Shown here one piece after another: positions 140 to 23,718 of a stretch of DNA of 34,747 nt. The notes beneath the pieces were generated by a model. The model did not search any database. It was not told where the DNA came from and saw nothing but the letters and a program-made list of their open reading frames with translations. The stretch spans positions 1 through 34,747 of the forward strand of contig JAQGBZ010000532.1 in assembly GCA_034687125.1 (NCBI GenBank), read 5' to 3'. The DNA is from Neelides folsomi (taxonomy: Eukaryota > Arthropoda > Collembola > Neelipleona > Neelidae). Positions within the stretch are counted from its first letter, which is position 1; each line of letters starts with the position of its first letter. The position numbers and the translations under genes are program-made.

Positions 140-284
140 TCTTCTGAATTAATGTAGACAAAAAAAGATTTATCCTTTGTCTTCATATCGTTTACGTATG
201 TAGATGAAAAGTTTTTATTGATTGATTGTAAAGTTTCCAATAAATTTCCATTTGAACAAAATTCGACTGCAACGAATACTTCAT
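140..284 (-). CDS. Gene 1 kinase exon 3 (hinge and kinase insert)
   Basis: This exon is too short for simple ORF finding. The acceptor CTATAG precedes 284 and the donor GTAATA follows 140. It reads in phase from exon 2 as N-E-V-F-V-A-V-E-F-C-S-N-G-N-L-L-E-T-L-Q, the beta-5/hinge segment followed by a serine/lysine-rich kinase insert of about 30 residues. The homologous exons are 8058-8196 in gene 2 (139 bp) and 22578-22710 in gene 3 (133 bp), against 145 bp here. The length difference falls entirely in the insert, which is poorly conserved between the paralogs. Confidence 0.78.
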
Positions 285-3200
285 CTATAGAAGGTTGAAT
301 TTATGAAAATCTACAATTACACAAAATTATTTTTAAAGAACTTTTCAATAAATGATTTACTGATTTTGATGTTCTCTGTACAAGCAGCTACTAGGGAAAC
401 AATATTTTCGTGTTTTCCAATTGTAGACATTATTTTTAATTCATCTAATAGAGCTTTAATCTGGACAAGTTCAACACCGGATTTGACAATTTTAACGGCA
501 ACTTCAATTTCTCTTTCTTTTGTCTTCAACAACCCAGCTTTTACAACCCCAAAATTTCCACTTCCAAGAATTTTTTCGCCTAATAAATTCATTAAATATT
601 AATTAATTGCTTACTCTTTCTTATATAATAAACATTTTGTTAAAATTTTACTGCTTTCAATTAAAAAAATCTTCATACCAATTATTAAATTTTCTTTTGC
701 CACTTCGTATTTATTATAGTATTTAAAAAATTCTTCGTTTGCAATTGAAGAATAAATTTTTTCCCCTTCAATAAATTCCTTGATTTCATCTTCATTTAAA
801 AATCTTATCAATTCTTGCTTTTTCCTTTTATATTTAATTATAATAAATATTATTACAATTAAAAGAAAAATAAAAACTCCGGTAGTTGACAACACAATAG
901 CATTTATAATATTTTTGGATAATTCTGGTTCATTAATTTTTCTCATTGTTGAATTTTCAACATGCACTTCAAAAAGGTTGGATATTTGGAAATTTCCTTC
1001 ACTAATTGCAATGTCCAGCGCAGTTTGATTTTCAATGTTGCGTAAATGAGTGGATGCATTGAATTTGAGCAGGATTTCCACAAAATCAAAATCCTCTTTA
1101 TTTGCCGCAAAGTGAAGCGGGGTCCATCCTTCAAAGTCAACGCCGTCAATATCCGCCCCGAAGCTCAACAACAATTCCCCAATTTCTTTATTCCCGCTAG
1201 CCACTGCGTAATGAAGAGCCGTCCTGTTTTCAATAGTACCGATATGAACATTTGCCCCGTGGTCTAATAACACTTTTGCGATTTCCAATTTATTAGTAAA
1301 TGCAACTTCCATTAAGGGTGTGAAGAGAAAATTATTTTCTGCAATATTTACATTAGCTGATTTATTTAGCAAAATTTGAACGATTTGAAGATTTCCACAT
1401 TTTGCAGCCAAATATAAAGGAGTTTCATTGACACTAGATAAAGCATCGATCTGGGCTCCATTTTCTAACAACATTTCAATCAATTTTACATTTTCGTCGA
1501 TTACTGCGTAGTGTAATGCGGTATAATTTGATTTATTAATAGCATTAATATCGGCTCCTTTTTCCAATAATAATTTCAAAATCTCAAAATTATTTATGTA
1601 CCTAGCCAATGTGAATGGAGTTTTTTCAAAACTTGAATCTTTTGTATTCACATTTATCCCTGAAACATTTAATAATAAATTTACAACTTCAATGTTCTTA
1701 TTATCAATTGCAAGAACTAAAGGAGTATTATTTGCATCATCAAAGACATTGACAGATGCATTTTTTGACAGAAGCATTTTCACTATTTCTTTGTGCCCAT
1801 TTTTTGATGCTTTGTGAAGGGCAGTTGATAGTTTACCATCCAAATCATTAACTTCCGCATTATTATAAAGGAGCGTTTCCACAATCTCCTTGTATCCTTC
1901 TTCTGCGGCAAGATGTAAAGGAGTTAAACGGGTATTTTTTTCTTTAATATTTACATTTGGATTTTTTTGCAAAATAAGTTTTGCAATATTTGGATATTTA
2001 TTGGCTAATGCCAAATATAGAGGAGTTCGATATTCTTCATCATGAATATCATATTTAGCCTCATTGTCGAGCAGAAGTTTCACCGTATCAAAATGCCCTT
2101 TTGAAATTGCGTAGGACAAAGAAGTCCAAAATTGATTGTCCATAGCTTCAATTTCTGAACCGTGAGATAACAACAATTTAACAATTTTCAAGTAGCCTTT
2201 ACCCGAGGATATGTGCAAAGCTGAGCGACGTTTAAGATCAATGGAATTGACATTGGATTCAGCTTCAAGTAACAATTTGACAATCTTAACATGGCCTTTT
2301 TCAGAAGCTATGTGAAGCGGATTAATGTTGTCAATAGTCGTTGCATTCACCTCAGCTTTGAAATCAATTAAATATCTAACAATTTTCAAATTGCCAATTT
2401 GTGCCGCAAAGTGCAAAGGAGTCCAATTATTTTCTTCCCGTGCATTTACGTTAGCTCCATTGAAAATTAAAAGTTGGACCATTTCAAAAAAACCATTATT
2501 CACCGAATAATGTAAACATGTCCACATACGCTTGGTTTTTGTCTCAATATTTGCACCATAGCTAAGTAAATATTGAACTATTAGTAAACGATTGTTCCTT
2601 GCTGCTTGATGCAAAGCTGTCAAATGGAATTCGGTCTCAACTACATTTAAATCTGCATTGTTTTGCAACAAAAAGTACAAAATTTTTAAATGGCCATTCC
2701 ATGCAGCATAAAATAATGGTGTTCTTTGTTCCTTATCGAAATCATTTACATTCGCCCCCATTTGAATCAATAAATTTGTGATTCCGAAGTTTCCATTTCT
2801 AGAGGCTAAACTTAAGACTGAAGTGAGGGATTTGTCTTTGGCGTTCACATTTGCCCCGTTCCTGATTAGATACAAAGCAGTTTCGGTTTGATTATTGGAA
2901 ATTGCAATGTGTAAATTGGATTTTTTTGATTCGCCATAATGTGTAAAAATTAAATTAAAATTCACTTTCCTATCCTTTAATATTTGAAGAATTTCAATAT
3001 TCCCATGAATCAAAGCTAATTCCAATGGGATACCATTCTCTTCATCTATTTTTGTAATTGTTGCTCCATTTTCTAACAAAATTTTGACAACTTTGGGTTT
3101 ACCTTTAAATACGGCATACTGTAGGGGGGAATTATTATTTTTACTTAAAGAATTTGCATTTAATTTTTTTTCCAATAAAAATAAAACAATATTTTCGTGG

Positions 3201-4219
3201 CCATTATAACTAGCTTCGTGTAACAATGACCATCCATTTTTATCTGTGAGGTTTATGTGTTGGTTTTCAAAAAATAATAAATTTACTACTTCCATATGAC
3301 CATTGGAAACTGCTAATTGTAGGGAATTCCACTGGTTTGAATTTAAAGCATTCAATTCTGCATTTGATTCAATTAATAATTTAACAACATCAATGTTTCC
3401 CTTTAAAGACGCAAAATGCAAAGGAGTCATTTGCTTATAATCGGAATTATTCATGTTGATATTTCCATCTTTTAATAATAATTCTACAATGTTTAAGTAT
3501 CCGAAATATGAAGCGTAGTGCAAGGGATTTAATTTATATTCATCAACTTCATTTATTCCAATTCCCATTTTAATTAATTCTATAGTAACGTTTATTTCTG
3601 ATAGTTTCATTGCTAGCATTAAAGGATTTTTATCAATTTCCAAAATCTGTTGAAAATTTTTATTTGTTTCCAATATTGAACTAATTTTATCCAATTTATT
3701 TTTTAAAGGCAAATAATTTATATTATTGTCATCTTTATACGAATAATAAATGAATCTCCTGTTGTTCGGATTTTCAATTATATTTTTGTTAAATTCTTCT
3801 ATAAGATCAGTTGAAACGAACGGGTCTTCCAGTTGATATTCGATATTTGAGTAAAAACAATTGTGGGTTTTTGAATAAAGTGTATCATAACAACAATCTC
3901 GGTTTTCACATTCCGTTTTTGAAATTCGTGCCCATCCGCAATTCCGCCTTGCGATTAAAGGGTTTGCATAGAAGCAATTCAAATTTCTACTCCGATATTC
4001 TTTGCAATCTTCACAAATTTCCGTCCCTCGTATTTCCTTTTCAGATATTTGATAATTTTCATAAAAACAAGAAGGTTCATTCAATTTATCATAGCAACAC
4101 CCACGATTGTGACAATCAAATATATTAATTTCCAACCAAGCGCATCTTACTCGAGGAAACGAATAGTAATCACCTGAGCATTTTGGATTCTTATTGTCAT
4201 TAATGCCTATAAGTAGCAA
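140..4219 (-). CDS. Gene 1: trefoil/ankyrin receptor tyrosine kinase, partial (3' end off window)
   Basis: Three exons are visible on the minus strand: 679-4219 (or further upstream), 361-579 and 140-284. Exon 1 encodes two P-type trefoil domains (about residues 14-52 and 82-122, counted from 4219), then about 25 ankyrin repeats, a transmembrane helix and a basic/acidic juxtamembrane region ending at ENLIIG. Exon 2 encodes the kinase N-lobe with an intact glycine loop (LGSGNFGVV), the VAIK-type lysine (VAVK) and the helix-C glutamate (DELKIM). Exon 3 carries the hinge-like VAVEFC and a kinase insert. Donors and acceptors are GT-AG and the phases (1, 1, 2) agree with gene 2. Position 4219 is a TTG, not a true start: the frame stays open to 4297 and encodes a hydrophobic signal-like stretch but has no ATG, so a 5' exon (possible acceptor AG near 4297) or a lost start must be assumed. 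The catalytic-loop exons lie left of the window or are gone. One trefoil domain fewer than genes 2 and 3. Confidence 0.82.
611..678 (-). other. Start of gene 1 intron 1 (read-through ORF tail)
   Basis: The open frame of exon 1 continues to 611, but the GT donor at 678-677 (TTG/GTATGA) matches the donors of genes 2 and 3 in position and phase, and the kinase exon continues at 579. The last residues of the naive ORF are therefore intronic. Confidence 0.75.
3289..3768 (-). repeat. Near-identical tract shared with gene 2 (copy in gene 1)
   Basis: Partner of 11458-11937. The encoded residues from about [13 protein letters not shown] to [10 protein letters not shown] are practically the same in both proteins. 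Similarity falls off at the SDKNGW repeat on one side and at the last trefoil on the other, which gives fairly sharp edges. Confidence 0.75.
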
Positions 4220-4870
4220 AATTAGGTTAATTAATGACAGAAATAAAAAGGTTGAGAGATACGGTAAATACCAAAATATTTCTTGTTGTATAAAAACTTA
4301 ATTTTTGCAAAAAAAAATTTTTTGTTTATGTATTATATCATTTTATAATATGATATACATACTAATGTTTAAGTTTTGGAGTCTGCTTTTCCATAGTGCT
4401 TTCATGGTTCAAAACTACGCACAATGTATTTGTGTGTTGCCCCGTCTAACCAAACTTAACCTCACACAACAAATAAGAATACAGAACCATGGTTTTGCAG
4501 AGACTCTAAATCTTAGCCAAAAATAGTGTTACAAAATGTAAAGACAATTAGACAGAAATTATTGGATACATCATATATGTTTTTATATTTTAAAGTAACA
4601 GTAAAATAAGTTCATTGAATATTTACGACTTTCCTTTGAAGAATAATTTTAATATTATTAACAAATGTTTTGCAATTCTTTCGCCGAATGTATTCGTTAG
4701 ATAAGTCCCTCTCGCGGCAGCAAGGAGGAAACAACTCTTTTACTCTCAATGAAACTTTAAAGTTAATTTTTAATTATTTACACCTAAATTATCTACTCTT
4801 CACATCTGAACTTGACCTGGTTTTTATTGGCTGACCTTACATGGCTGGTATTACATTTGACTCTCCTCTC
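4220..4870. other. Intergenic stretch upstream of gene 1
   Basis: No gene is supported here. 4220-4297 is still open in the frame of gene 1 and hydrophobic (signal-peptide-like, without ATG). An imperfect inverted-repeat element lies at about 4372-4513 and is listed separately. The rest (about 4520-4870) has moderate base composition, with short pyrimidine tracts and no recognisable coding frame. Confidence 0.5.
4372..4513. repeat. Imperfect inverted-repeat (foldback) element
   Basis: The outer arms TTTTGGAGTCTGC and GCAGAGACTCTAAA are inverted relative to each other. Inside them CCATAGTGCT faces AGAACCATGG, and TTTGTGTGTTG (about 4429-4440) faces CACACAACAAAT (about 4463-4474). Nested inverted repeats over about 140 bp with no coding capacity fit a MITE or foldback element. 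No target duplication was identified, so the ends are approximate. Confidence 0.4.
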
Positions 4871-5594
4871 ATTTAGCAACCATTATGATAAAGTTAGATC
4901 AATTCAACCTTATTCCGTATTCAAAGAGTGAGAAAGTGCTTTAATAAAAAGGCCTTTCTCATTTACTTTAATGCACTCGTCTTCCCAATTATCGATTTTT
5001 GCTCTGAGGTTTGGCTAGTTGTTTCTGACTCCAAGATCTTTGATTTTCAACATAAGGTTAATATTTTTATTGCCCGTAATCTGTATTTTTTGCATGTAAG
5101 TACTAACAGAAAGAAAAAATCCCTTTCTCATTTAACTAGATCCGACTTTACTAAACTGTTAATTTCTTTTAATATAAAAACAAATATTATTAGGTGTAGA
5201 ATTAGGTATTGAAAGGTGTTTCTACATTTTTAATCTTTTGAAATTTACCCATTCAGGTCGTTCTAATTACAGTATTCATCGAGCCTCACTCGCCTCAACC
5301 TCTGAGATATACTTGAGATGTATTAGACAGAGCTTGTTTACTCTGGAGATCTTTACCTAAAAATTGGGAACTAAATAGCTCTTTAAGTGAGCATGATTGA
5401 ACTTGTTAGAAATGTTCACGAATTGGATTGTTAATAAGGAAATGGTGCCATTATCTTTTTGTAATTAATTTTATGATTAGGTTATGACTTGTATTATGAA
5501 AAAATTGTTATCAATGCAGGTCTATATATGAAAAACTTGTAACACAAGATATATTTGAACTGGTTAAAATAAAACTTATTTGATTTGATTTGAT
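4870..5594 (+). mobile_element. 3' end of a truncated LINE (non-LTR retrotransposon)
   Basis: The frame at 4928-5212 encodes a reverse-transcriptase C-terminal signature: NALVFPIIDFCSEVWLVVSD followed by FQHKVNIFIARNLYF. It corresponds to the thumb-region pattern 'RPIIDYCSxVW...LQxxxNxxxR' of many LINE polymerases. Further degraded frames follow, including a possible terminal WIVNKE motif near 5425, and the element appears to end in a short (TTTGA)n tail at about 5578-5594, typical for LINE 3' ends. The catalytic RT domain, endonuclease and ORF1 are missing, and stops interrupt the frame, so it is a dead 5'-truncated copy. Confidence 0.65.
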
Positions 5595-6620
5595 ACTTTC
5601 GTTAAAATATATCTAATCAAAGATTATAAAACGTTTCATTTCCAAATATTTATCTTACCAAAGGTGATATGTGAAAAATCTTCTTCAAAATTTATACAAA
5701 AAATTCCAGTAAATGTAAAACAAATTATAATAAATATAATTGTCATTTTTAAATATTTTAATATCATTTATTAAATTAAATATCTGAAATTTATATTGTT
5801 ATTTTTATTGAAATTCGATTAGATATTATTATCATTAAATTTATTATTATTTGGATATCAATTCAAGATAATTGTTTAAAATTGAGATATAACATCTAGT
5901 ATACAATTATTTTATACCTCATATTTTGGCACTTATGCTTAAAACTTATGAACAGTAACAAAATATATATTTTGATTGATAAGATATAATAGGCATTGAA
6001 CAATGATATTAAATTGATTATTTAATTAAAGAAGGAAAAGTTAACTTTTAACTTTTAAGGAGATAAAATGAAGGAAAGGAAACAAAAAATTAATTGCAAA
6101 ATATCATGCTTTTCTAAGATTCGGCTCATGAATTTTCCTCATATTCTCACACGAATATATTTTATTCATTTTCTATATTACAAGAATTTTTTTATTAGGA
6201 AATTCAATAGAAATTTCATAATAAAAATATTGGTTAACTTGTTGATTCACAATAAAATGAATAATATGTTGTAAAATCTCAAACTTTACCAGGAAAGAGG
6301 ATAATTGTTAATTATTAGCCGGATCTTAATATTTATGTTTGAATTAAAATAAAAATATTGGTTTTGATACTGAATTTTTACGTTTCTGATTTTTAAGTTG
6401 GCCTATTAAAAATTAAATGTTTACCTTTTTAAAAGAATAGACATTAAATAAATTATTGATGAGCCCACAATATTTTATTGTATAGTGAATCTAATGAGAT
6501 TTCTTAAATAATGCAATGAAACGTAATAATAGACCTAAACTTAATTTGGATTTATTTTAATTGCTACAAGAATTAATTAATCTTCTATAAAATTATTATT
6601 TGTTTAACAAAATATTTTAT
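5595..6620. other. AT-rich intergenic DNA between LINE remnant and gene 2
   Basis: Very AT-rich sequence. The open frame at 6068-6274 (68 residues, rich in Ile, Phe, Asn and Lys) looks like chance translation of AT-rich DNA. The only functional signal I see is the polyadenylation hexamer of gene 2 on the minus strand at 6616-6621. Confidence 0.5.
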
Positions 6621-6621
6621 T
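6616..6621 (-). terminator. Polyadenylation signal of gene 2 overlapping its stop codon
   Basis: On the minus strand the stop TGA (6623-6621) runs directly into AATAAA, sharing its last base. Gene 3 has the same arrangement, which suggests that this compact 3' end is ancestral to the family. Confidence 0.55.
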
Positions 6622-8822: not shown

Positions 8823-11800
8823 CTAACAATCCATATTTATTTAGTATTAAAATAACAATTTTTAATCGTATTTTTCTTTATATTTAATATATAATAAACA
8901 ATAAATAAAATAAGAGTTAAAAAAATCATAATAAATTTTCGAACCAATTATTAAATTCTCTTTTTTTACTTCATAATTATTATTATATTTAAAAATTTGG
9001 GATTCTTCATTAGCATAAGGAGAATAAATTTTTTGCCCTTCTATAAATTCCTTAATTTCATCGTCATTTAAATATCTTTTCATTTTTTTGTTTTTTCTTT
9101 TATATTTAATTGCGAGAAAAATAATGACGATTGATGGGATTAATATTATAATAGACGTTGACAAAATAATTGCAACAATTGTGCGAAGAGACAACTCTGT
9201 TCCATAAATTGGGAGAACTTTTGGATTCTTATCAAAATTCTCAATAAGATTTGAGATTGGAATATTATCTTGATAATTTGCTATATCTTGAGCAGTATGA
9301 TTTTGACTATTGCGCAATAGCGTGTTAGCATTGAATTTCAACAGCAATTTTACATATTCAATATTATGATTCATTGCTGCAAAATGAAGCGGCGTCTTTG
9401 AATCAAAATCAATCGAATCAACATCGGCCCCATAATTCAATAATAATTCTCCCATTTCAATATTTCTCCTTGTAATTGCATAGTGCAGAGCAGATGAATT
9501 GTTTTCTGTAGGAATGTTAGCATTGGCCCCATGTTCCAGTAACAATTTAACGATTTCAAAATTATTTAAACGCACAGCTTCAAGCAAAGGGGTGAAATGT
9601 TTTAATTTTTCAATTGTATTTACATCAGAAGAAAAGTTTACCAACAATTGAACAATTTGGAGGTTTCCTTTAGAAATGGCCAAATACAAAGATGTTTTAC
9701 AATTATGTTCAAAATCATTAACCCTTGCGCCATTTTCCAATAACAGTTTTATAATTTTATAATTTTCCTTCGATGTAGCTTCTAACAAAGGGGTAAAATT
9801 TGTGTCTTTCACTCTTGTATTAACTTCAGTCCCCGATGCATTTAACAATAATCTTACAGCTTCCAAATGTTCATTTGACACCGCCAAAAATAAAGGAGTT
9901 TTATTGTTGTCTTCAAACGCATTCACGTTAGCATTTTTTGTAAGGAGTTTTCTTATTATTTCAATATGTCCTTTTTGGGCAGCTTTGTGCAACGCAGTCC
10001 AAAAATTAATATCAACATGATTTACATTTGCATTATTTAGGAGAAGAGTTTCCACGATATCAATGTAACCATTGTTGACCGCCAGATGCAACGGAGTTTT
10101 ATGATATTCGATTTCTGCAACATTTACACTTTGATTTTTTCTCAATATGATTTTAGCAATATTGGGATAACCTTTATCCAAGGATACATACAGAGGAGAT
10201 TGGTTTTTATTATCAAGAATATCAACTTTGGCTCCTTTATTAATTAGAAAATTAACAACATCATAATGCCCCTCGTTTATTGCGTAATAAAGAGCTGTTT
10301 TGTGTTCATTGTCTTTTGCATCGATTTTAGCCCCTTTTGAAATTAACAATTCCACAATTGGTAAATGCCCTTTATTAGCCGTTTCATGCAAAACAGATCT
10401 CTGAAAATTATCTTGTGAATTGACATTGGCTTTTGCCTCTAATAACAATTTCACAATTTCAAAATGTCCATTTTGTGAAGCTGTTTGCAACGGCGAGACA
10501 TTATTAGTAGTTGAATAATCTACATTGGCGTTCATATCCAATAGATGACTTGTTATGTTTAAATATCCTTCTTTTGCTGCAATGTACAACGGAGTTTCAT
10601 CGCTTGTTGTTTTTGAATTTAGATCGGCTCCCCTTGATGTTAAAAGTTGTACAACTTCAAAATACCCATTTTTAACGGCTCTGGTCAAAGGCTTCCACAT
10701 TGAATATGTTTTGACTTCAATATTTGCCCCGTTGTCAAGAAGCAATTGAACCATTTGTAAGTGATTATTACTAACAGCTTGGTATAAAGGGGTTAAATGA
10801 GAATCTTTCTCACCAATATTCACGTCCGCTTTATAATGCAATAAAAGTTGAACAACATCCAAATTTTCGTTTGATGTTGCAAAGAATATTGGTGTTTTAC
10901 CCTCATTATCGTAATCATTAACATTTGCTTCATTTTTAATTAGCAAATCTGTGATTTCAATATTTCCCAATTTGGCAGATAAATTTAAAACTGATGTGAG
11001 GGATTTATCTTTTGCATTTACATTAGCCCCGTTTTGGATGAGAAACACAGAAACTGGGTTGAGGTTATTCGAAATCGCAATGTGCAAAGGAGATTTTTGG
11101 GATTCACGATATTTTTTAAATATAGTATTAAAATTTGTGTTTCGATTCTTCAGCAATTGGAGGATTTTTACATCGCTTAAATTCATGGCTAATTCCAAAG
11201 GAATTCCATATTCTTCATCTATTTTTGAAATAATGGCACCCTTTTCTAAAAATATTTTTATTATTTTTCCTTGACTTTGAGAAGTAGCAGCATATAGCGG
11301 CGTATGATAGTTCATATCAAGTTCATTTATATTTAACCCTTTTCTCAATAAAAATAAAACAATATTTTCATGGCCATTATAACTAGCTTCGTGTAATAAT
11401 GACCATCCATTCTTATCTTTGAGTTTTTTATGTTGCTTTTCAAAAAATAATGATTTTACTACTTCCATATGACCATTGGAAACTGCTAATTGTAGGGAAT
11501 TCCACTGGTTTGAATTTAAAGCATTCAATTCTGCATTTGATTCAATTAATAATTTAACAACATCAATGTTTCCCTTTAAAGACGCAAAATGCAAAGGAGT
11601 CATTTGCTTATAATCGGAATTATTCATGTTGATATTTCCATCTTTTAATAATAATTCTACAATGTTTAAGTATCCGAAATATGAAGCGTAGTGCAAGGGA
11701 TTTAATTTATATTCATCAACTTCATTTATTCCAATTCCCATTTTAATTAATTCTATAGTAACGTTTATTTCTGATAGTTTCATTGCTAGCATTAAAGGAT

Positions 11801-12662
11801 TTTTATCAATTTCCAAAATCTGTTGAAATTTTTTATTTGTTTCCAATATTGAACTAATTTTATCTAATTTATTTTTTAAAGACAAATAATTTATATTATT
11901 GTCATCTTTATACGAATAATAAATGAATCTCCTGTTGTTAGGATTTTCAATGATGTTTTTGTTAAATTCACTTACATGATCTGTTAATATGAAAGGATCT
12001 TCCAGTTGATGTTCAATATTTGTATAAAAACAAAATAAACTATTTAAATTGAGGTCATCATAACAACAATCCCGGTTTTCACATGCCAATTTTGAAATTC
12101 CTGGCCATCCGCAATCTCGTCTGGCCAATGAAGGAGTTCCAAAATAGCAATTTAAATTTTTGCTTCTTTCAATGCAATCGTCGCAGATTTTTTCTTTTGT
12201 TGTATTTTTGAAACAATTGTGTGCATTAGTATAAGTATTGTCATAGCAACAATTTTTAGTTTCACACTCTTCCTGTGTGATTCCTCTTTGCCCGCATTTT
12301 ACTCGATTTACCATCGGATTTTCAAAATCACAAATACGATTCTCACTTTTATACATTGTACTATTTGTTTTAACAGGAATAACTTCATATTGAAAGTTTA
12401 GGTAGAAACATTGAGGCAATTTAAGTTCATCATAGTCTTCATCATAGCAACAACCACGATTTTCGCAATCAGATATTTCGATGGAAGTCCAACCGCAACG
12501 TGATCTGATTGTTGTTGAATTTACATATATACATTTATTAATTTTGTTGTTCTTTTCAATGAACAAACTTTCAATAATTACTATAAAGAATAAATTTAAT
12601 AGGATTAACATAGTTAAGAAAATGACAACGTTCAAAAGCCTATAATTTAAAAGTAAAAACAT
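6621..12662 (-). CDS. Gene 2: trefoil/ankyrin receptor tyrosine kinase, complete
   Basis: Seven exons, complement of 8945-12662, 8604-8822, 8058-8196, 7908-7998, 7299-7421, 7000-7211 and 6621-6735. All junctions are GT-AG and all phases close, giving 1538 residues. Order: N-terminal hydrophobic signal segment (about 8-30); P-type trefoil domains at about 44-86, 111-151 and 172-212, each with six cysteines and CG[WQ]/CCYD cores; a linker with the conserved [18 protein letters not shown]; about 25 ankyrin repeats (about 270-1130); one transmembrane helix near 1160-1185 followed by KYKRKNKK; a juxtamembrane region with [10 protein letters not shown]; and a kinase from ENLIIG to the C-terminus. 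Type I topology is inferred from the signal, the cysteine-rich trefoils and the positive stop-transfer cluster, so trefoils and ankyrins face outside and the kinase inside. The ligand is unknown. The ATG at 12662 gives a start directly in front of the hydrophobic segment. Head-to-head with gene 3. Confidence 0.88.
7422..7907 (-). other. Gene 2 intron 4 (486 bp, the longest)
   Basis: Lies between the helix E exon and the catalytic-loop exon, with donor GTATAT and acceptor TTTAG. No coding content or repeat family was recognised. The matching intron in gene 3 (22915-23051) is only 137 bp, so this one has grown by insertion. Confidence 0.6.
8945..12662 (-). CDS. Gene 2 exon 1: trefoils, ankyrin array, membrane helix in one exon
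   Basis: A single uninterrupted 3718-bp exon encodes the entire ectodomain, the transmembrane helix and the juxtamembrane segment. The ankyrin units of about 33 residues carry the usual TPLHxA...G....VxLLL...GAxxN pattern. They contain almost no cysteine (one seen, in FEHNCKTS), in contrast to the cysteine-dense trefoils. The C-terminal cytosolic piece has [11 protein letters not shown] and [14 protein letters not shown], possible phosphorylation sites just in front of the kinase. The naive ORF runs on to 8862, but the donor at 8944 ends the exon. Confidence 0.85.
11458..11937 (-). repeat. Near-identical tract shared with gene 1 (copy in gene 2)
   Basis: This segment of gene 2 exon 1 matches gene 1 at about 3289-3768 with only a few base differences by eye (about 99 %), while sequence on both sides is clearly more diverged. 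It encodes the linker before the ankyrins and the first three or four repeats. Gene conversion or unequal exchange between the two same-strand paralogs is the simplest reading. Confidence 0.75.
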
Positions 12663-13550: not shown

Positions 13551-13574
13551 AACCTAACCTAACCTAACCTAACC
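13551..13574 (-). repeat. Interstitial telomere-type (TTAGG)n repeat
   Basis: Almost five perfect units of AACCT (TTAGG on the other strand) in a row. This is the telomere repeat of most arthropods. It lies 55 bp after the left direct repeat and just before the strawberry notch-like relic, that is, at the border of the inserted block. Short interstitial telomere repeats are known scars of break repair, but 24 bp could also arise by chance slippage. Confidence 0.65.
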
Positions 13575-13890
13575 AGGGTGATTGTTTTTGGGCAATTTCA
13601 TTGTTGCTGTAAAATATTCAGATGGAGCCAGAGAACACTGAAATTAGGAGTAAGTTGAAACTTTATAATAATTACAAGTTCAAGGCTCTAACGACTTTTT
13701 TATTACTAAGAGTGAAGCATAAGCTGGAAAAGTATTTCGAGGAAATTGAAGAATTTGGGCCTCAAGCGTTGGATTCATTGCAAACGGCTTCGTCTCCACT
13801 GCCGACCACCAACATCCAAGAAGAGGAAGAGGCAGAACTAGGGCCAGGCGGGGAATTTGAAATATATTGCACAGCTGGAGGTTTGATTTA

Positions 13891-14115
13891 ATTTTTTTGG
13901 GTGGTTTTTTTGGGTGACAATTTTGGGTGATTTTATTAGGGTATTTTAATGAGTAATTTTCTTTTGGTAATTTTCTTTGAGTGATTTTCTTAGGGTAATC
14001 TTTTTGGATAATTTTCTATCGTTGATTTTCTTTGGGAAAATCATTTTGGGTGATTTTATTTTGGGCAATTCTCTTCTGAGTGATTTTCTTTGGATGATTT
14101 TTTTTAATTAATTTT
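13891..14115 (+). repeat. Degenerate minisatellite, about 16-bp T-rich unit
   Basis: About a dozen imperfect copies of a unit close to GGGTGATTTTCTTT follow one another, probably inside an intron of the strawberry notch-like relic. Confidence 0.6.
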
Positions 14116-15522
14116 GTAAAATTTTAAATTGTTTTTTAGTTAACGGTTACTATTCAAAAATTGGACTATGTTAGACTATCCAGTGCCCGGAAATAAAGAA
14201 CCAGAAGCTCTCTACTCGACTTATGTGGCTCTCACTGAAAAATTCAAGGACAGGTTTCAGACGCTGAAAGAGTGGCTGGGCCAAGACTTTGACGGTCTCA
14301 TGATTTTTGACGAGGCTCATCGTGGGAAAACTTTTCTCACGGCGGGGATTCTGGCTCTAAAGTTGTCGAGCTGGAGCAAAAATTTCCCAAATAAAGGGTC
14401 GTGTATAGTTCGGCAACGAGAGCCAGTCATTGAGGATTTGTTTCACATGGAACGTTTGGGGCTCTGGGGTAAAGGAACAACTTTTAAGACTTATGACGAA
14501 TTTGCCGAAAAATGAGTGACTAGTGAGCCTTTTTTCTCATCCAATATTTTAGGATATAAACGAAATTTGTATAATATTAAAATTAATTTTAGGGGCTTTT
14601 CTAGACTAGAGTTGATTTCAATGAAATTGAAGCAATCGGGCCGCTACTTGTCGCGCCATCTCTCTTTTAATGAATGCAAGTTTTATTGAGTTGAAATTGA
14701 ATTACTTCCTGAATTTTCTAACCTTTGGGATTGCTCATCCAGATTTTGGAAGAATATTCTAACAATAATGACCAGAGCCTTGGTGTATGCGTACCCAAGG
14801 ATCCTTGAAAAACCCACCCAATATCGAGTCAAATACTTTTCCTATCTTTTGTCTTAGTTTCAATCCATATTAGCTTCGGAAAAGGTTGACAGATCAGTGG
14901 AGCTGGCCAATGAATACATGGCCACTGGCCACTGCATTATTTTTTTCCTACAAAAGACTGAGAAAGCGGCCATAAAAAATTATGATGAAAAGTTGAATGT
15001 GCCGGTCGAGGATCAAAAATGGATTTCCACAGCCTATCAAATGCTCATCGACATTACAATCAATTGCTGGCCTAGAGTAAAGGTGTTTGAAAAAAATGTT
15101 CCAAAGCTCGTGACTCGTTCCAAACTTGGGCTCGTCTTTAACCAACTTTTGGAAGAGCGAGAGATGGAGCCAGACATTAAAGCTGCTTTGGACAAAATGG
15201 AACAGAATTTGAAGGACAAACTCCTTGAGCTTGCCCAGGTCCTGCCGCCAAATGTCTTGAACTATCTTATTGATCGGATGGGTGGTGTGGGTAAAGTTGC
15301 GGAATTGACTGGACGAAACCGTCGATACGTCAAGCACCCTGACGGAGTCATTTACTGCGAGAAAGTTCCGGCCAATCAAGTGGAATTGGAAGCATTTATG
15401 AAGGAAGGGCGAAAATAGGTGGCAGTTATTTCTGAAGCCTGCTCTACTGGCATTTCCCTTCATTCGAAAAATGTTGCTGGAGGAAACTTGGCCCGCCGTG
15501 TACACATTACACTCGAATCCAG

Positions 15523-15600
15523 CTGGTACATTTTATTTATATTTTAATTATTTCCATGATTTAGTATTTTGTATTGATTTGGTGTATTTATTCTTATAGG
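15523..15600 (+). other. Retained intron in the strawberry notch-like pseudogene
   Basis: The reading frame ITLESSW/SADRVLQSLG is interrupted by a 78-bp AT-rich segment starting GTACAT and ending TTATAG. Removal restores the conserved protein motif exactly, so the intron is ancestral and the copy is not a processed retrogene. Confidence 0.75.
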
Positions 15601-16096
15601 AGCGCGGATAGGGTCTTGCAGAGCCTTGGGCGGAGCCATAGAACAAACCAACTTTCGACGCCAATTTACTTTATGCTTCTCTCGAGCATTCCTGGGGAAA
15701 TGCGGAATGTGTCGGCTGTGGCTCAAAGGATGCAAACGCTTGGAGCACTCACCAAAGGTGACGGCCTCTCGCTCGACAAGTACAAACACAATCATTTGAG
15801 GCTTGAAACGGACATTGGGCGCGAGGTTGTAAAGGAAGGAAGTTTCCACTTTCCTCAACAGGATCATTGCCACGGAGTTGGCGAATCAAAATGCCCTCTA
15901 TACCCATCTTGCCGCTACCATTACAAAGATGGATAGGAAGGCCAAATTGGAGGAGACTGTTGTGCAATTGAATTCCTGTTTCCTCGTCCCTGGATTGAAC
16001 CAAGAAATTTATATTGAACTCAAGCTTCCCTTTAAATTTTTCCAAAATGGAGAAATAAAGCTTGTGGTCCTCTACCGGCTTAAATTTCGTTGACGC

Positions 16097-16132
16097 AAAA
16101 GGTCAAACGTCATGAGTGACGTTTGACCTTTT
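16097..16132. repeat. Perfect 16-bp inverted repeat with 4-base loop
   Basis: AAAAGGTCAAACGTCA (16097-16112), loop TGAG, and its exact reverse complement (16117-16132). It sits at a break in the strawberry notch-like relic, between LYRLKFR and YKKAFPEAPHERNGG. Confidence 0.9.
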
Positions 16133-16970
16133 TTGTCAATACAAGAAGGCATTTCCAGAGGCACCACATGAAAGGAATGGAGGCTACATGCGCAAGTTTT
16201 CTGGAATGCCGTTATACCTCTCATTTGATTCAAAGGAAGGGAATTTCGTCCAGCTCAGGCCTTTTGATGGAATGATGAAGAAGGTGAAGAATGATGTTTG
16301 GGTGAAGCCGAAATTAACACACTCATCCCATTGGAAGAGAACGAATTTATGAAATTGTGGAAGGCAAAGGCAGCCGCAGCCAAACTTGGTTGTTTCCACA
16401 TTCAACAGTATGTATTATATATATATATTCAAAAGCAATTGAGCATATGGATATTTCGTAATTTAAATGTATTCTTTTAGGAAAAAAGTTTGTGGGTGCG
16501 ACGAAGGGGCCGGGTACTAATACTACTGGTTGGTGATTGGACGGATTTGAGCCATCTACATGAAATTGACTAAATTGCTTCCAACCATCAGGATCATCCA
16601 AGTCAAGGCCAATAATATTAAAAAAAATTGGAAATAAAATCAAAAAGGGAAAAGCCTCTTAATTGGTGGGAGTGGTCATTCAAACAAAGAAGAATGGAGA
16701 CGTTCGTGCATTTCTGGTTTTCAATCTGGTTAAGAAAAACAAGGAAATGATTGACGAAAAGGAGGCTTCCTCTGTGGAAAATACCGATGATTCCTAATTT
16801 TACTCATCCGGCTATCAACTCTCTTTGATTGCCGATGAAGCCACAGAAACGAATGGAAGTGAACAGAAGTCTGAATCTTTTGAGGACGACCAAGAAGTAA
16901 GAGGAAGACGAATCACCCATTATTCATATCAAATGATTTTTAATGTACAAATATTACTGTTCAAATAAAT

Positions 16971-17150
16971 TGTGTTGTATATATAAATTTTCATATTATT
17001 AATTATTCATATTGAAACCCTTCATTTATGTTTATGAAATATTGATAATTAGCATTTAGATTATTATAAGTTAAAATTTCAAGAACTCTATTTTTAATTT
17101 AATCCCTTAAAATATAACATTAGCTTTAAGGTTTGCTAATTTTAATGGTA
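16971..17150. other. AT-rich spacer
   Basis: No coding potential or repeat recognised. It follows an AATAAA at about 16965 that may be the old polyadenylation signal of the strawberry notch-like relic. Confidence 0.4.
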
Positions 17151-17600
17151 CCTGTCGCAAACTATCACAGGTAAACTAGGTGCAAAGATTAAGTAAATAA
17201 GGGCTTTTTCTTGAAAGTTTATTTAAGGAATGCTATAATGCTATGTTTATGATTCACTATATAAGCAGACGAATTGTAACATGTAGGGGAGGGTTGTTTT
17301 GTCCAGTAATTGTTGAAGGAACTCCGTGTGAATAAACCTTGATTTGTTTCTTTGTCAAAATTCAAGTAGCTCATTTTCTTATCGGCTCTTTTGCAAACAT
17401 TGAGGTGTTTACTCCCAAGCCCAAACTTAACTTAAAAGGTCTGTCTCTATCCCGACTTGAGGAATATTCTCCCCATTTTCCATCCCCGTTCCCTTTGACT
17501 TCACGCCGAACAGTATGTGCCGACCCAACCGAACCCGGCGTAATTACCACCAATAAGCCATTGCCAACCAGCCGGGCTCATCATTAAATCATAAACCGAA
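17150..17600 (+). mobile_element. Possible solo LTR or LTR/leader fragment
   Basis: A promoter-like TATATAAG (17258-17265) is followed by GC-richer sequence and an AATAAA (17331-17336) about 70 bases later, the arrangement of an LTR U3-R-U5 region. The open frame 17339-17587 behind it is proline/serine-rich and matches nothing I recognise; it could be leader or gag-like debris. No TG...CA ends with a 4-6 bp target duplication were found, so this is only a suggestion. It could also be the promoter and first exon of an unrelated gene. Confidence 0.3.
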
Positions 17601-17783
17601 CACCGCCTTTTCAATATATATATATACATATTCATAACGTGTTTAAAGATCCATATATTAAAAATAAAACGTTTCAATTAGCACAATAGAGTGCATTAAA
17701 TGTATATTTATAACTTTTTTGAAATGAGCATTCAAAAATAAATAATAAAATAATAATAATAATACTTACATTAACACAATTCA

Positions 17784-17970
17784 GCTTCATTATTGTAGAA
17801 TTTAATTTCCTTAACGTTAAAAATAAATATATATTAAAATACCCAAAGAAGTCACCTAAGATTATAAAAACAAACAGCTTGTAAAATCTCACCCAAAAGC
17901 TCAGAATTGGATAAGTATTTTCCAATTTGCATTTTGACATCAATTCTTATAGGAATTGGACTTTTAAATC
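17784..17970 (+). repeat. Direct repeat, right copy
   Basis: Partner of 13316-13495 in the same orientation. It lies about 500 bp upstream of the start of gene 3. Poly-AT and (TAA)n-like tracts precede both copies. Confidence 0.7.
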
Positions 17971-18477
17971 GAATATATTTTATTCAGTATTCATTATTTC
18001 TTATTTTAATTTATTTTTAATCGTGACTATTAAATTTCTATTTTAAAATTTATAGCTAATTTTTAACAATAATTCTAGATAAAGGCTAAAATTTTGAGCT
18101 ACCACATAATAATGCAATTATCCTTATGTGTATCACAACATATTTCATATGATAGGGAAATATTGATTTAAGAATTATTACTTAGAAATCAATTATATTT
18201 TTTTCTTTGTGATCGCATTAACCAAAAAATAAAGTTATTTTTCCCTTAACACAATTTTATGTTTTCCTACTCAAATAAGGATATTTAGGTTATTAAAAAA
18301 ATTGGAAATGTACCAATATTTCTTGCATTTTAATTACATCATTAAAGTTAGAGAGAATAAATTGGAGGAAAAAAAATTTTCAATTTCCAAATAAAAATTA
18401 ATAAAATACTATTACCATTTATTTGATTCTTTAATTGTGATTTAATGATTTTTGTACTGCACGTGTGAAACATTTAA
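17971..18477. other. 5' flank of gene 3
   Basis: About 500 bp of AT-rich non-coding sequence ending at the gene 3 ATG. It must contain promoter and leader, but no motif stands out. Confidence 0.4.
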
Positions 18478-21400
18478 ATGTCAATTTTATTTTATTTACT
18501 TTATTTTGAATTTGTCTCTCGTGGAATAATTGGAATTGAAGAAAAATGTTTATTTCAAAATGCCACAACATTCAGATCGAAATGCGGCTGGGATGACATC
18601 AATTTAATCGAATGTCAAAATCTCAGCTGTTGCTATGACAATAATGAAAATCCTTCTTGTTTCTATGAAAATTTTCAATTTGAAGAAATTCCGATCAGAT
18701 CCACAAATCCAATAAAGAAAAGTGAAAATAAAACGTGTGATTTTCAAAATCCGCTCGTAAATCGAACCAAATGCGGCTCAAGTGAAAGTACTCAAAATGA
18801 ATGCGAAAACGACAATTGCTGCTTTGACAACAGCTACACAAATGCACACAGTTGTTTCAAGAATTCCCTAAGAGATGAAATTTGCGAAGGTTGCGAATTG
18901 CTTCGGACCGTAAATGGGAATTGCTACTTTGGAAATCCTTCCTTGGTCAGACAGGATTGTGGATGGACGGGAATTTCAAAAGCTTCATGTGAAAACAGAG
19001 GTTGTTGCTATGACGATCATTATAAGAATAGCGGATTTTGTTTTAAAACAAATATTGAACATAAATTGGAAGATCCGTTCATTTTGCCCTTTGTTGGAAT
19101 TTCTTTTAATAAACAGATCATTGAATATCCCCAAAACAGAAGATTCATTTATTATTCTTCCGAGGACGACAATAAAAATTATTTGGGAATGAAGAATAAA
19201 CTTGATAAAATTAAATTGATTTTGGAAAATCATAAAAATTTGGAAAGTTCAAAAGTTTTCAAAAATATTTATAGTGTCGATCAAAACCCAATTGTGTCGG
19301 CAATGAAACTAACGGAATTGAACATTGCCAGAGATTTAATTAAGAATGAGATTGGTTTAAATGGAATTGATAAATATAACTTAAATCCCTTCCACTACGC
19401 TTCCTATTTTGGATATTCTGACATTTTGGAATTGCTGATGGAAATTTCAAATGTGAATCTAAATTCTGATGATTACAAGAAAATGACCCCGCTGCATTTT
19501 GCTTCATCAAAAGGTCACGGCGATATTGTCAAATTATTAATTGACGCAAAAGTCGATTTGAATGTTTTAAATTCCAATAATTGGACTCCGCTCCATTTAG
19601 CTGTTTCTGAAGGTCATGTTGAAATTGTAAAATTGCTAATCACTCACAATGCAAGAATAGACACAGTTGATAGAAATGGATGGACTTTACTACATGAAGC
19701 AAGCTACCATGGCCACGAACAAATTGTATTGTTTTTATTAGATAAAGGTTTAAAAGCAAATACGGTTGATCTGAGCAAAAATTCACCGCTAAATTCTGCG
19801 ACATCCCAAGATAAAACCAAAGTAGTCAAAATATTGCTACAAAACGGCGCCATTCTGTCAAAATCCGATATTGAAAATGGAATTCCTTTAATATTGGCCT
19901 TGAAATCCGGCGAGATTGAAATTCTACAAATATTGAAGGACCAAGGAGCGAATTTTAATATAATTACAAAAAATAATGAAGAATCCCAATACACCCCATT
20001 GCATATTGCCATTTTAAGTAAACAAACCGAAGCTGCAGCATTTCTGGTTAAAAACGGTGCGAATGTTAAAGCCCGAGATTTTTTTTTGCAAACTCCTTTA
20101 CATTTTGCAGCCACATTTGGAAACAAATTAATCTCAAGCTTGCTAATTGAAAGAGGAGCCAATGTCAACGCTCTAGAAAAAGATCTAACAACTCCTTTAT
20201 TTCATGCTTCATTTCACGGACATTTAAAAGTAGTCCAGCTTTTGCTCAATCACAGTGCGGATGTAAACGTTGTTAAAAATAAATACCAATATACGATTCT
20301 GACCATGGCTGTAAGACAAAATTACATCCAAATTGCCAAATTGCTCCTTGACCACGGGGCTAATATAGAAGCCAAATCAAATAAATGGTGGACTCCATTG
20401 CACGAGGCAGTTGATAAAGGACATTTTGAAATGGTTCAATTTTTGACCGAAAAGGGGGCCAATTTAAATGCACAGGATTTAAACGATTGGACGCCTTTGT
20501 ACATAGCTTCACTTAAAGGGAATTTAAACATTACTAGACATCTTTTGGAAAAGATGGGAAATGCTAATGTCAATACTTACGATAAAGAGCACTGGACTGC
20601 TTTGCACCAAGCGGCTCACAACGGTTTTTTAAGCATTGTGGAATTGCTACTTGCCAAAGGTGCCGATATCGATGCAGTCGACAACGAAGATTGGACGGCT
20701 TTGTATTTTGCAATAGATAAGGAACATTCTGAGATTGCCATTTTCTTGATAAAAAAAAAGGCTGCCTTGAATTTGTTAGACTATAAAAATCGCTCTCCGC
20801 TCTATTTTTCTTTAGAAAAAAAACAGGTGAATATTGCGAGAGCTATTTTAAAAAGAAATCCGAATGTCAATACAATTGAAAAGAATTTTAATTTAACTCC
20901 TTTGCATCTCGCGTCCAGCCGTGGCTACACAGACATCGTTGAAATTCTCCTAAAACTAAATTGTACGAATATCAATTACGTTGATACTCTACTATGGTCT
21001 GCACTGCACAAAGCAGCAAATAATGGTCACAAACAAATCGTTAAGATTCTCATATCATACAATGTAGGCTTAAATGTTATTCAAGAAGATCATAAAACCG
21101 CGTTGTTTCTTGCAGTATCAAATGAACATTTCGAAGTTGTCTATTTGTTGTTGAAAGTTCCTAGGATTGAGGTGAACACAAAAATAAAAGACTCAAATTT
21201 TACTCCTTTAATGGAAGCGGTTTCAAAAAATAATTTGGAAATGGCCAAATTATTATTAGAATACCAAGTTGAAATTAATGATTTTGATAATAAAAATTTT
21301 ACTTCTTTGCATCACGCTGTTAAAAACGGGAATATCGACATTGTTGAATTATTGTTGGAAAAAGAAGCCAAAGTTAATGTTTTAGACCAAAATGGAATAA

Positions 21401-22153
21401 GCCCTTTGTTTCTTGCTGTTTCGAATGGAAATGTCCAAATTGTTGAAATGTTGCTGAACAAATCGGCTGATGTAAATGCTGCAGAGAAGAAAAAGGATTT
21501 TACGCCACTGATCGAATCCGTAAACAAAAATAAATTTGAAATCGTTAAACTTTTATTGCAACGTGGGGCTAATCTTGGTCTCCTTTCAAACCAAAATTCA
21601 TCAGCGCTTCATTTAGCAGCCAATGGGAATTATTTAGACACTGGAAAATTGTTATTGGACCATGGAGCAAAAATCGACCAAGCTGAAGAAAAAGGAAGAA
21701 CTCCTTTACATTTGGCGGCAAATAAAGGAAATTTCGAATTTATCAAGATGCTGTTGGAATTTAATGCAAGCACCGTTTTGCTCGATATAGATAATCACAC
21801 AGCTCAAGATTTGGCCGAAATCCATGGAAATCAACAACTTTCTTATTTTTTACAGAATTTTCGTAAAGAATCTAAAATAAATGCAATTCTTGAAAAATCT
21901 CAAATTTCTCAAGCTACAATTATTGGAATTGTCTTGTCGACGGTTGCCGTTATATTGGTCTTTTTGAGCGTCATCATTTTTCTTATGATAAAATATAAAA
22001 TAAAAAGTCGAGAATTGAAAAGATTTTTAAATGAGGATGAAATTAAAGAATTTATCGAAGGAGAAAAAATATATTGTTCAATTGGAAATGAAGAATCACG
22101 AGTTTTCAAATATAACAATAAATATGAAGTGAAAAGAGAAGAACTTATTATCG
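18478..22153 (+). CDS. Gene 3 exon 1: trefoils, ankyrin array, membrane helix
   Basis: One exon of 3676 bp without a break. The trefoils keep the full six-cysteine pattern with cores such as [20 protein letters not shown]. The ankyrin region has a single cysteine (KLNCTN) and many N-glycosylation sequons (for example NFT, NHS, NKS, NSS), both compatible with passage through the secretory pathway. A conserved EICEGC cysteine pair lies between trefoils 2 and 3; genes 1 and 2 have EICEDC and KICDDC at the same place. The exon ends in the glycine codon of EELIIG at a phase-1 donor (22154); the naive ORF continues to 22200 into the intron. Confidence 0.85.
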
Positions 22154-23718
22154 GTAAAAATTTATTTATAATTTTTCAAATATTAATATTAACAACATAA
22201 ATAATCTTAAGCTTAAAAAATTGTATCATTAAATTTATTTACTAAAATTTAAATTTTAAATTTAGGAAAAACGATTCTAGAAAATGGAAATTTTGGAATG
22301 GTTTTAAGTGGATTTGTCAAAACAAACGAAGGAGATGTTGAAGTTGCAATTAAAGTTGTAAAATCGGGTGTCGAACTTGTTCAAATAAAAGCTCTTTTAA
22401 ATGAATTAAAAATAATGTCCACAATTGGAAAACACGAAAATATAGTTTCGCTTATTGCCGCTTGCACTGAAAACATCAAAACAAGTTAACTCAAAAACAT
22501 AAATTAAAAAAAATGCTAAAATATTATTTTCTATTGATTACATATTTTATAAAAATTTACAAAATAAAAATTTTCAGATGATGTGTACGTCGCCGTAGAA
22601 TTTTGTTTGAATGGAAATATGTTGGAAATTCTATTGTCAATGAACAAACACATTTGTTCCATAACGGTTAACAAGAAAACAGTTTCAAATGATTATGAGA
22701 ATCTTACAATGCAATTACAAATTATGAAACTCACAAATTTTTAAATATTTTTAAAATAATAATTAAAATAATTATTTAAGATTTAAATGGTATTTTAAAT
22801 TCTTTTATAATTGTATAATTTAGCAGTTACAAAAAACCAATCGAAGTTTCAAATCAATTGATGAAATGGTCTTTTGAAATTGTTAGCGGAATGGAATTTC
22901 TTAGTAAAAATAAGGTAGTAAATATATATCAATTTTGTATTCAAATCAAATATCAATATTTTTAAAATATTATAATACATAAAATTAAATTTATTACTGA
23001 ATAAAAATGATTTTTATCTTATATATAAATTACATTTATACATTACTATAGATCGTCTATTGTGATCTAGCGGCAAAAAATGTTTTATTGACTTCTGCAA
23101 ATAAAGCTAAAATTTGCGACTTTGGATTATCTCGACAACTATTTGAAGACGCAACATATACCAAAAAATCAAAAGTTTATTCATTATTTAAAAATACTAT
23201 TTAATTTGTAATACAAAATATGCTATTAATGATTTTATATCCCAGTGTCCTTTGCCATGGAAATGGATGGCCGTTGAATCTTTGGAGTTTTTCAAGTTTT
23301 CAGAGAAATCTGATGTTTGGTCTTTTGGCGTTACTTTGTGGGAAATCTTTTCATTGGGGTCAACTCCTTATGCGGGTTCTCATTGGAGTCCAGAATTTGT
23401 CAATTCATTGAAAAATGGAATGAGAATGACCAAACCAGTTTATTCATCTGATAAAATGTATGATTTAGAGTAGTTATTTTATATTTGTTAAACCCTTTTA
23501 TTAAAATGTATATTTAAAACTTCCATATTCAGTTAAATTTCAATTTTTAAATTGCAAAATAATAAATAATTAGAATGAATGGTTTACTGATTTACTGTAT
23601 TCATTTTAGGTATAATTTAATGAAACTTTGCTGGGAAATTAATGCTGACGATCGCCCAACATTTTTCGAAATTTTAGTTTGCATTGAAAATGAAATAGCT
23701 GCAGAAAAAGTTCAATAA
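18478..23718 (+). CDS. Gene 3: trefoil/ankyrin receptor tyrosine kinase
   Basis: Exons 18478-22153, 22266-22484, 22578-22710, 22824-22914, 23052-23174, 23246-23457 and 23610-23718 give 1520 residues with all phases closing. Residues 1-20 form a hydrophobic signal segment. P-type trefoils lie at about 24-62, 87-127 and 149-189, followed by the [18 protein letters not shown] linker, about 25-26 ankyrin repeats (about 268-1125), one transmembrane helix ([20 protein letters not shown] region) with basic stop-transfer residues, a juxtamembrane [10 protein letters not shown], and a tyrosine kinase. Exon lengths equal those of gene 2 except in exons 1, 3 and 7. Oddities: the donor of exon 3 is not GT (AT/GCAATT is the only site that keeps phase and length), the first glycine of the loop is Glu, and the catalytic loop reads YCD. 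Either a working gene with a GC-AG intron or an early pseudogene. Plus strand, head-to-head with gene 2. Confidence 0.82.
22266..23718 (+). CDS. Gene 3 kinase exons 2-7
   Basis: Exon 2: [10 protein letters not shown] (loop with Glu in place of the first Gly), VAIKVVK lysine, NELKIM glutamate. Exon 3: [15 protein letters not shown] hinge. Exon 4: [19 protein letters not shown]. Exon 5: [25 protein letters not shown], one activation-loop tyrosine (ATYTKK). Exon 6: [13 protein letters not shown] and [17 protein letters not shown]. Exon 7: [20 protein letters not shown], ending EKVQ. Lysine, glutamate, catalytic aspartate and DFG are all present, so phosphotransfer is possible. HRD His and Arg are Tyr and Cys. 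The tail after the kinase is only about 15 residues, so substrate docking sites, if any, must be in the juxtamembrane region or insert. Confidence 0.82.
22711..22823 (+). other. Gene 3 intron 3 with non-GT donor
   Basis: No GT lies where the exon must end; GC at 22711-22712 is the only dinucleotide found that preserves both frame and the length seen in genes 1 and 2. The acceptor is TAG (22821-22823) or CAG (22824-22826). The context AT/GCAATT is weak for a GC-AG intron. Confidence 0.45.

Follow-up and report, generated by a model that had tools for sequence, protein, structure and literature searches.

The contig JAQGBZ010000532.1 of the springtail Neelides folsomi, whose entire length of 34,747 nucleotides forms the window analyzed here, carries three paralogous genes for candidate receptor tyrosine kinases (RTKs). 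Each gene (copy A, B, or C) encodes, in this order, trefoils, about 25 ankyrin repeats, one membrane helix, and a tyrosine kinase of the PDGFR/VEGFR type. Among seven close paralogs from the same genome, a signal of diversifying selection is confined to the concave ankyrin positions that are randomized in the engineered binders called DARPins, and purifying selection acts on the repeat core, the trefoils, the membrane helix, and the kinase exons. We consider it reasonably probable that these proteins carry a DARPin-like recognition array on an RTK, such that the ligand bound in an extracellular groove would differ from receptor to receptor, with clustering likely to activate the kinase.

Three trefoil-ankyrin-kinase genes and their relatives

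A sequence-only reading of this contig had proposed three paralogs with trefoils, a long ankyrin array, one membrane helix, and a tyrosine kinase, and the open frames, Pfam matches, and splice model of copy B confirm this proposal. In each copy, exon 1 is a single open frame of 1228 to 1271 residues that includes an N-terminal hydrophobic stretch (weak in copy C), P-type trefoils, the ankyrin array, the membrane helix, and the juxtamembrane region. The Pfam domain search suggested as a check in that reading matched trefoil and ankyrin families in all three exon 1 frames, with Trefoil E values of 6.6e-14, 2.6e-26, and 3.5e-20 (two, three, and three stretches) and Ank_2 E values of 1.8e-165, 3.8e-146, and 1.9e-157 for copies A, B, and C, respectively. 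No other Pfam family was matched in the three ectodomains, including any immunoglobulin (Ig) domain. The features of the three copies are as follows.

4297-611, minus strand: copy A exon 1 open frame, 1228 amino acids
4297 to about 679, minus strand: copy A exon 1 (hydrophobic start, two trefoils, ankyrin array, membrane helix, juxtamembrane)
4061-4153 and 3848-3952, minus strand: copy A trefoils (two)
835..910, minus strand: copy A membrane helix, by hydropathy
579 to about 361 and about 284 to 140, minus strand: copy A first kinase exons, cut by the contig start
12677-8862, minus strand: copy B exon 1 open frame, 1271 amino acids
8945..12677, minus strand: copy B exon 1 (signal-like start, three trefoils, ankyrin array, membrane helix, juxtamembrane)
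12402-12506, 12207-12317, and 12024-12134, minus strand: copy B trefoils (three)
9107..9182, minus strand: copy B membrane helix, by hydropathy
8822-8604, 8196-8058, 7998-7908, 7421-7299, 7211-7000, and 6735-6621 (stop), minus strand: copy B kinase exons
18478-22200, plus strand: copy C exon 1 open frame, 1240 amino acids
18478..22153, plus strand: copy C exon 1 (start, three trefoils, ankyrin array, membrane helix, juxtamembrane)
18571-18666, 18751-18861, and 18940-19047, plus strand: copy C trefoils (three)
19288..21855, plus strand: copy C ankyrin solenoid, 25 modeled helix pairs and one degenerate pair
21916..21991, plus strand: copy C membrane helix, by hydropathy
22266-22484, 22578 to about 22681, about 22781 to 22914, 23052-23174, 23246-23457, and 23610-23718, plus strand: copy C kinase exons
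3282..3655 (copy A) and 11455..11828 (copy B), minus strand: 374-base tract, identical in A and B

Signal and membrane segments were judged by a simple hydropathy threshold. A single strong hydrophobic helix follows the ankyrin array and is itself followed by KYK. An N-terminal hydrophobic stretch exceeds the threshold in copies A and B and in seven other copies, and it falls below the threshold in copies C, C632, C756, and C360 (copies outside the window are labeled by contig, for example C563a, and the window contig is C532). The earlier proposal of a signal peptide common to all three paralogs is only partly right: A and B have candidate hydrophobic starts, the stretch in C is weak, and the open frame of A has no Met before residue 226. 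Copy A also required correction because it has only two trefoil matches, and it has only its first kinase exons because the contig ends there, before the HxD motif is reached.

An AlphaFold model of the copy C ectodomain, built from a three-row alignment, shows one unbroken solenoid with 25 ankyrin helix pairs and an additional degenerate pair (mean predicted local distance difference test score of 72.8; predicted template modeling score of 0.50), with low confidence in the trefoil part. Its best fold matches are ankyrin-1, ankyrin-B, and NOMPC, followed by latrotoxin and DARPin structures, with template modeling (TM) scores near 0.35 or less by query length.

Copy B splices into seven exons encoding 1543 amino acids without a stop. 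The exon 1 frame continues through the membrane helix to a phase 1 donor at LxI/G (with L, S, or F variants), and the first intron lies at the same place and in the same phase in all 17 ankyrin-type kinases that were modeled, as well as in four of four non-ankyrin siblings from the same kinase clade. These gene models place the kinase exons in the same gene as exon 1. The K, alpha-C E, HxD, DFG, and APE-like motifs are all present in 14 of the 17 ankyrin-type kinases; the exceptions are A and C133, which are cut by the contig, and C259, which has a stop in the APE-like motif. The catalytic motif of these kinases and of the four siblings is HCD rather than HRD. In copy C it is YCD, and both the glycine loop and the His of HRD are altered. 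The best full-domain structure matches of the kinase are PDGFRA and then KIT, FLT3, CSF1R, and VEGFR. By eye, the spliced models have an extra segment between both kinase lobes (the kinase insert), and a YxN motif occurs there in 10 of the 17 models, a count that has no chance control and includes several poorly modeled inserts.

The junction between exons 3 and 4 of copy C, in the kinase insert, is ambiguous in the splice model and requires a frameshift, as is also the case in several close paralogs. The kinase exons past the frameshifting junction nevertheless keep a ratio of nonsynonymous to synonymous substitution rates (omega) of 0.13 (two exons, five paralogs), which favors translation of these genes. 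Overall, omega values for kinase exons are 0.29, 0.13, and 0.13 (72, 41, and 60 codons), which indicates purifying selection.

The genome searched comprises 75,104,828 bases in 840 contigs and contains 66 trefoil matches. Fourteen contigs carry trefoils together with ankyrin matches to copy C, and with C532 contributing three copies and C563 two, the total is at least 17 trefoil-ankyrin copies. Because this many copies repeat it, the architecture is well beyond chance. The 374-base tract shared by A and B sits near the start of the ankyrin array, where the surrounding identity between the two copies is mostly 55-73%, and we infer that it reflects a recent gene conversion.

A signal of diversifying selection at the predicted ankyrin groove

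Seven close paralogs (copy C, labeled C532C, along with C563a, C563b, C632, C756, C360, and part of C133) were placed in a codon alignment with 29 repeats in register. The arrays differ in length while remaining in frame: an insert of 101 residues (three repeats) is present in C563a and C563b and absent from the other close paralogs. C532C is shorter by 31 residues (about one repeat) and C360 by 158, which is roughly five repeats but no exact multiple. Visual inspection places the differences among the middle repeats at hairpin and inner-helix positions, and the hypervariable block of the copy C solenoid corresponds to repeats 8-16 of this alignment. We take ankyrin positions 2, 3, 5, 13, 14, and 33 to be those randomized in DARPins; the repeats of DARPin chain 6mol_A differ from each other at these positions.

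At these six positions, nonsynonymous divergence (dN) is 0.203 versus 0.078 elsewhere, and none of 5000 random six-register sets was as high. For the inner-groove positions 10, 13, and 14 of repeats 8-16, dN is 0.633 versus a synonymous divergence (dS) of 0.265 for the block. The resulting ratio of 2.39 (bootstrap 1.72-3.28) exceeds 1 in 21 of 21 pairs, and the value for exposed convex positions is 0.45. Position 10 and the block were picked after the alignment was viewed, and therefore the site-class test described below uses neither as a site set.

We used our own codon likelihood calculation, in which all partitions share one neutral clock and the middle block has a free rate of its own. 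A codon test in IQ-TREE was discarded: it gave no omega value, and the ordering of its fixed GY parameters was in doubt. The maximum likelihood estimate of omega at the DARPin positions of repeats 8-16 is 1.70 (twice the log-likelihood difference, 2dlnL, of 16.5 versus omega of 1). The flanking repeats give 0.77 at those positions, and the rest of the array gives 0.39 to 0.41.

Site-class models M1a and M2a were compared with branch lengths fixed and the middle block given its own neutral rate; position 10 is in neither of the split sets. M2a is preferred for the whole array (858 codons; 2dlnL 58.9), with 3.2% of codons at an omega of 5.7. It is likewise preferred for the DARPin positions (156 codons; 2dlnL 31.1; p = 1.8e-7), with about 17% of codons at an omega of about 5.9, whereas the 676 other codons give no positive selection (2dlnL 0.04). 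On a star tree, the 2dlnL values are 42.2 at DARPin positions and 0.96 at the others, and an alternative topology gives 35.3 and 0.0. Among control sets, six random register sets yield 2dlnL values of 0 to 1.75, and the exposed convex set yields 4.2 (p = 0.12). The whole-array fit has 16 codons with a posterior above 0.8, nine of which are at DARPin positions and two at position 10; nine of the 16 fall in repeats 9-16. Outside the array, trefoils (omega 0.29) and the membrane and juxtamembrane segment (0.27) are under purifying selection.

The earlier suggestion of a large, evolvable binding surface is supported both by the in-frame differences in array length and by the diversifying signal at the predicted binding residues. 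The first 20 codons (signal region) of the six close paralogs covering it have a dN of 0.086 versus a dS of 0.023, from very few sites. C235 and C662 encode apparently cytosolic ankyrin arrays with near-identical repeats that, by eye, also vary at hairpin and inner-helix positions within a single protein.

Kinase ancestry and the search for similar receptors

Ten further kinase loci of the genome were compared with the ankyrin-type kinases. Four of these (C614, C361, C348, and C206b) are members of the HCD kinase clade with no ankyrin frame upstream, five (C507, C792, C601, C15, and C223) are HGD kinases, and C92 is an unrelated kinase that serves as the outgroup. A quick tree of 49 kinases included 13 ankyrin-type rows, with A, C133, C563a, and C563b left out. 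These 13 and the four HCD siblings form one clade with a Shimodaira-Hasegawa-like approximate likelihood ratio test (SH-aLRT) support of 100, nested in a clade (SH-aLRT 100) with all 18 springtail rows used. The sister rows of the HCD clade are Orchesella receptors with Ig families (SH-aLRT 93), and C15 pairs with a Folsomia row (SH-aLRT 96). Springtail VEGFR-like proteins are also among the nearest sequences in the kinase search and are the nearest in the tree. Non-RD catalytic motifs are general in this group, as the 18 springtail rows have HGD (12) or HAD (6). The proposal of a lineage-specific receptor family is supported by the number of copies and by the placement of 13 of their kinases, with the four siblings, in one clade within the springtail expansion.

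An Ig scan of HCD siblings covered one exon each of two of the four: C348 gave an Ig_3 match (E value of 0.014) below the cut-off, and the C206b exon gave no Ig match. The HGD receptors C601 and C15 have weak Ig matches, also below the cut-off. Because the kinase siblings and sister rows carry other ectodomains, the trefoil-ankyrin ectodomain was probably swapped onto a PVR-like chassis; one trefoil-ankyrin exon would have replaced the ectodomain of an Ig-type PVR-like receptor. The ankyrin label requires three changes within the kinase clade, and therefore a single origin with losses and several swaps are both compatible with the tree.

C682 (11600-19400) encodes an ankyrin-only receptor, with a 1495-residue frame that includes a membrane helix and is followed by a complete kinase. 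Another ankyrin frame on this contig, 1475 residues long, has a kinase match. The Allacma fusca kinases P0040 and P0110 carry LDLa and trypsin annotations, suggesting that the kinase chassis has exchanged ectodomains beyond the ankyrin family as well. In C223 (3500-9200), transposase-like frames (200-1051; by eye) are next to a VEGFR-like kinase.

The sequence-only reading knew of no described RTK class with the trefoil-ankyrin-kinase order, and none appeared in our literature searches or among the protein matches listed. A search with the trefoils and linker of copy B returned two weak ankyrin proteins, neither listed with a trefoil. The kinase search returned 3164 matches, and none of the 120 listed has ankyrin or trefoil families; a profile of four family members returned 1641 matches, and none of the 120 listed has a trefoil. 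Literature searches, judged by their listings, revealed no RTK with an extracellular ankyrin array. In passages of PMC8260672, ankyrin concerns NF-kB, and the trefoil merely marks an outside location. The three proteins with ankyrin and kinase families among the 120 profile matches listed (P0125, P0164, and P0175) were rejected as relatives: inspection by eye revealed nothing resembling a signal at their N-termini, and none has more than a single weak hydrophobic segment (peak of 1.81).

The family resembles PDGFR/VEGFR-type RTKs (arthropod PVR and the springtail VEGFR-like expansion) in kinase sequence, and its exon joint is common to sibling loci. In contrast to the Ig ectodomain of those receptors, the trefoils and ankyrin array lie in one intronless exon without Ig, and the HRD motif is replaced by HCD (HGD or HAD in springtail rows). 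The family thus consists of candidate RTKs with a PDGFR/VEGFR-type kinase that lack the Ig ectodomain by which class III/V is defined.

Between copies B and C, a G+C-richer island (14144-15936, plus strand) contains pieces of a strawberry-notch helicase (PF13872, E value of 1.5e-14; PF13871, E value of 1.9e-20).

Proposed function and alternative explanations

Judging from its anatomy, the protein would be secreted and displayed on the cell surface with the array outside. Trefoils are a secreted, disulfide-bonded fold, and the trefoil cap may serve to protect the extracellular solenoid or to hold it in position. A protein ligand that differs between paralogs would be contacted by the middle repeats through their groove, and ligand binding would cluster or dimerize the receptors and lead to trans-phosphorylation of the activation-loop tyrosine. 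The YxN motif of the kinase insert could then be phosphorylated, recruit Grb2/Drk, and signal to Ras/MAPK. The family may later have diversified as genes duplicated and converted one another, as repeats were gained and lost in frame, and as selection acted on the groove. Because the predicted groove residues carry a signal of diversifying selection among close paralogs while the rest is conserved, the receptors likely recognize many different, possibly foreign, molecules. The sequence-only reading had raised such recognition, and we infer it as well, with variable proteins of foreign or rival origin as the likeliest ligands.

Several known systems come close to the proposed one. DARPins have the same repeat framework, with diversity at positions 2, 3, 5, 13, 14, and 33 on a conserved core, as in the seven close paralogs. 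However, DARPins are engineered and have few repeats, whereas the natural arrays described here have about 25 repeats, a trefoil cap, a membrane helix, and a kinase, and position 10 is also variable. Plant leucine-rich repeat (LRR) receptor-like kinases form a large family in which an extracellular solenoid with a diversifying concave face is carried on a membrane kinase. The springtail receptors are proposed to work alike, with ankyrin in place of LRR and an animal tyrosine kinase, and no common descent is claimed. Spider latrotoxins are secreted toxins with long ankyrin arrays that act outside cells; the array has a fold match to them, but copies A, B, and C have no latrotoxin-specific Pfam family (e.g., the N-terminal domain). 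Ankyrin-R/B and NOMPC, to which the array is matched best at the low TM scores given above, have cytosolic arrays without trefoils and without a kinase.

Several observations weigh against a diversified extracellular groove. The array contains 0-6 Cys per 700-960 residues, and two cytosolic arrays of the same genome are likewise Cys-poor (5 in 1211 and 3 in 756 residues). Its 10-13 sequons are a small excess over the shuffled means of 8.0-10.9. For these reasons, we dropped Cys poverty and sequon count as proof of an outside location. The receptor is a prediction from genomic DNA. Only four of 17 splice models (B, C451, C454, and C682b) are free of stops and frameshifts when using a simple splicer, with the trouble in the remaining models mostly at the kinase insert or contig end, and exon 1 is broken by a stop or frame change in at least four copies (C133, C259, C451, and C375).

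Other points concern the selection signal itself. Pairwise omega of the DARPin positions across all repeats is 0.91 (versus 0.36 elsewhere), and the block-based ratio is 1.48 (1.11-1.99); position 10 and repeats 8-16 were post hoc choices. In an older clade (A, B, C451, C259, and C639), omega is 0.36 at concave positions versus 0.16 elsewhere, and there is no supported class with an omega above 1, with synonymous branches being saturated. Paralogs also recombine, as the conversion tract of A and B indicates. Finally, neutral evolution was simulated on a star tree. For the a priori set in repeats 8-16, the observed amino acid diversity was attained by 0 of 500 runs with a dS of 0.25, by 36 of 500 with 0.346 (the measured dS of these positions), and by 485 of 500 with 0.5. 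The corresponding counts for positions 2, 3, 5, 10, 13, and 14 were 0, 4, and 365 of 500. The neutral simulation at the measured dS is therefore borderline.

With these points in mind, the DARPin-like receptor proposal can be made more specific, although only tentatively: the springtail germline may encode a repertoire of natural DARPins, with trefoil-capped solenoids on RTKs and grooves tuned to pathogen, parasite, or toxin proteins. It is less likely that the receptors instead track co-evolving partners of the animal itself, such as paralog-specific growth factors or mating or allorecognition proteins. The chassis does belong to a class of growth-factor receptors, and the selection pattern suits any binding arms race, but the roughly 17 or more copies, the in-frame gain and loss of repeats, and the conversion resemble recognition repertoires. 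We regard as improbable a third explanation, in which the concave positions are just the most permissive, conversion among paralogs and repeats inflates dN, and the family is partly decaying. The conversion tract, the broken copies, the lack of an omega above 1 in the older clade, the borderline simulation (36 of 500), and the similar variation by eye between repeats of cytosolic arrays in the same genome are all in keeping with it. However, permissiveness alone yields an omega of at most 1, whereas a class near 5.9 is required, and this result holds on the star and alternative trees. Moreover, the exposed convex positions give no comparable signal (2dlnL 4.2, p = 0.12), and the kinase exons are under purifying selection. 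A gene-model artifact, with ankyrin and kinase exons in separate transcripts or with a cytosolic array, is very improbable: the models are indeed predictions from DNA, copy A lacks an early Met, and the signal stretch of copy C is weak, but the membrane helix and juxtamembrane region share an open exon with the array, the phase 1 joint recurs in 17 of 17 models, copy B is open from end to end, and trefoils are an established secreted fold.

The ectodomain is what defines an RTK class, and no class found in our searches uses an ankyrin array as its reader. Should the array function extracellularly, then nature uses, on a signaling receptor, the same recognition residues that engineers picked for DARPins. 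An extracellular array would also make this family a model of how an animal lineage could diversify a set of receptors that uses neither Ig nor LRR domains, as well as a source of naturally selected, probably stable, long ankyrin binders. If the receptors are indeed a repertoire of natural DARPins, they would be the animal equivalent of the LRR receptor kinases of plants, and no earlier immune receptor family of animals would have read its targets via extracellular ankyrin repeats.

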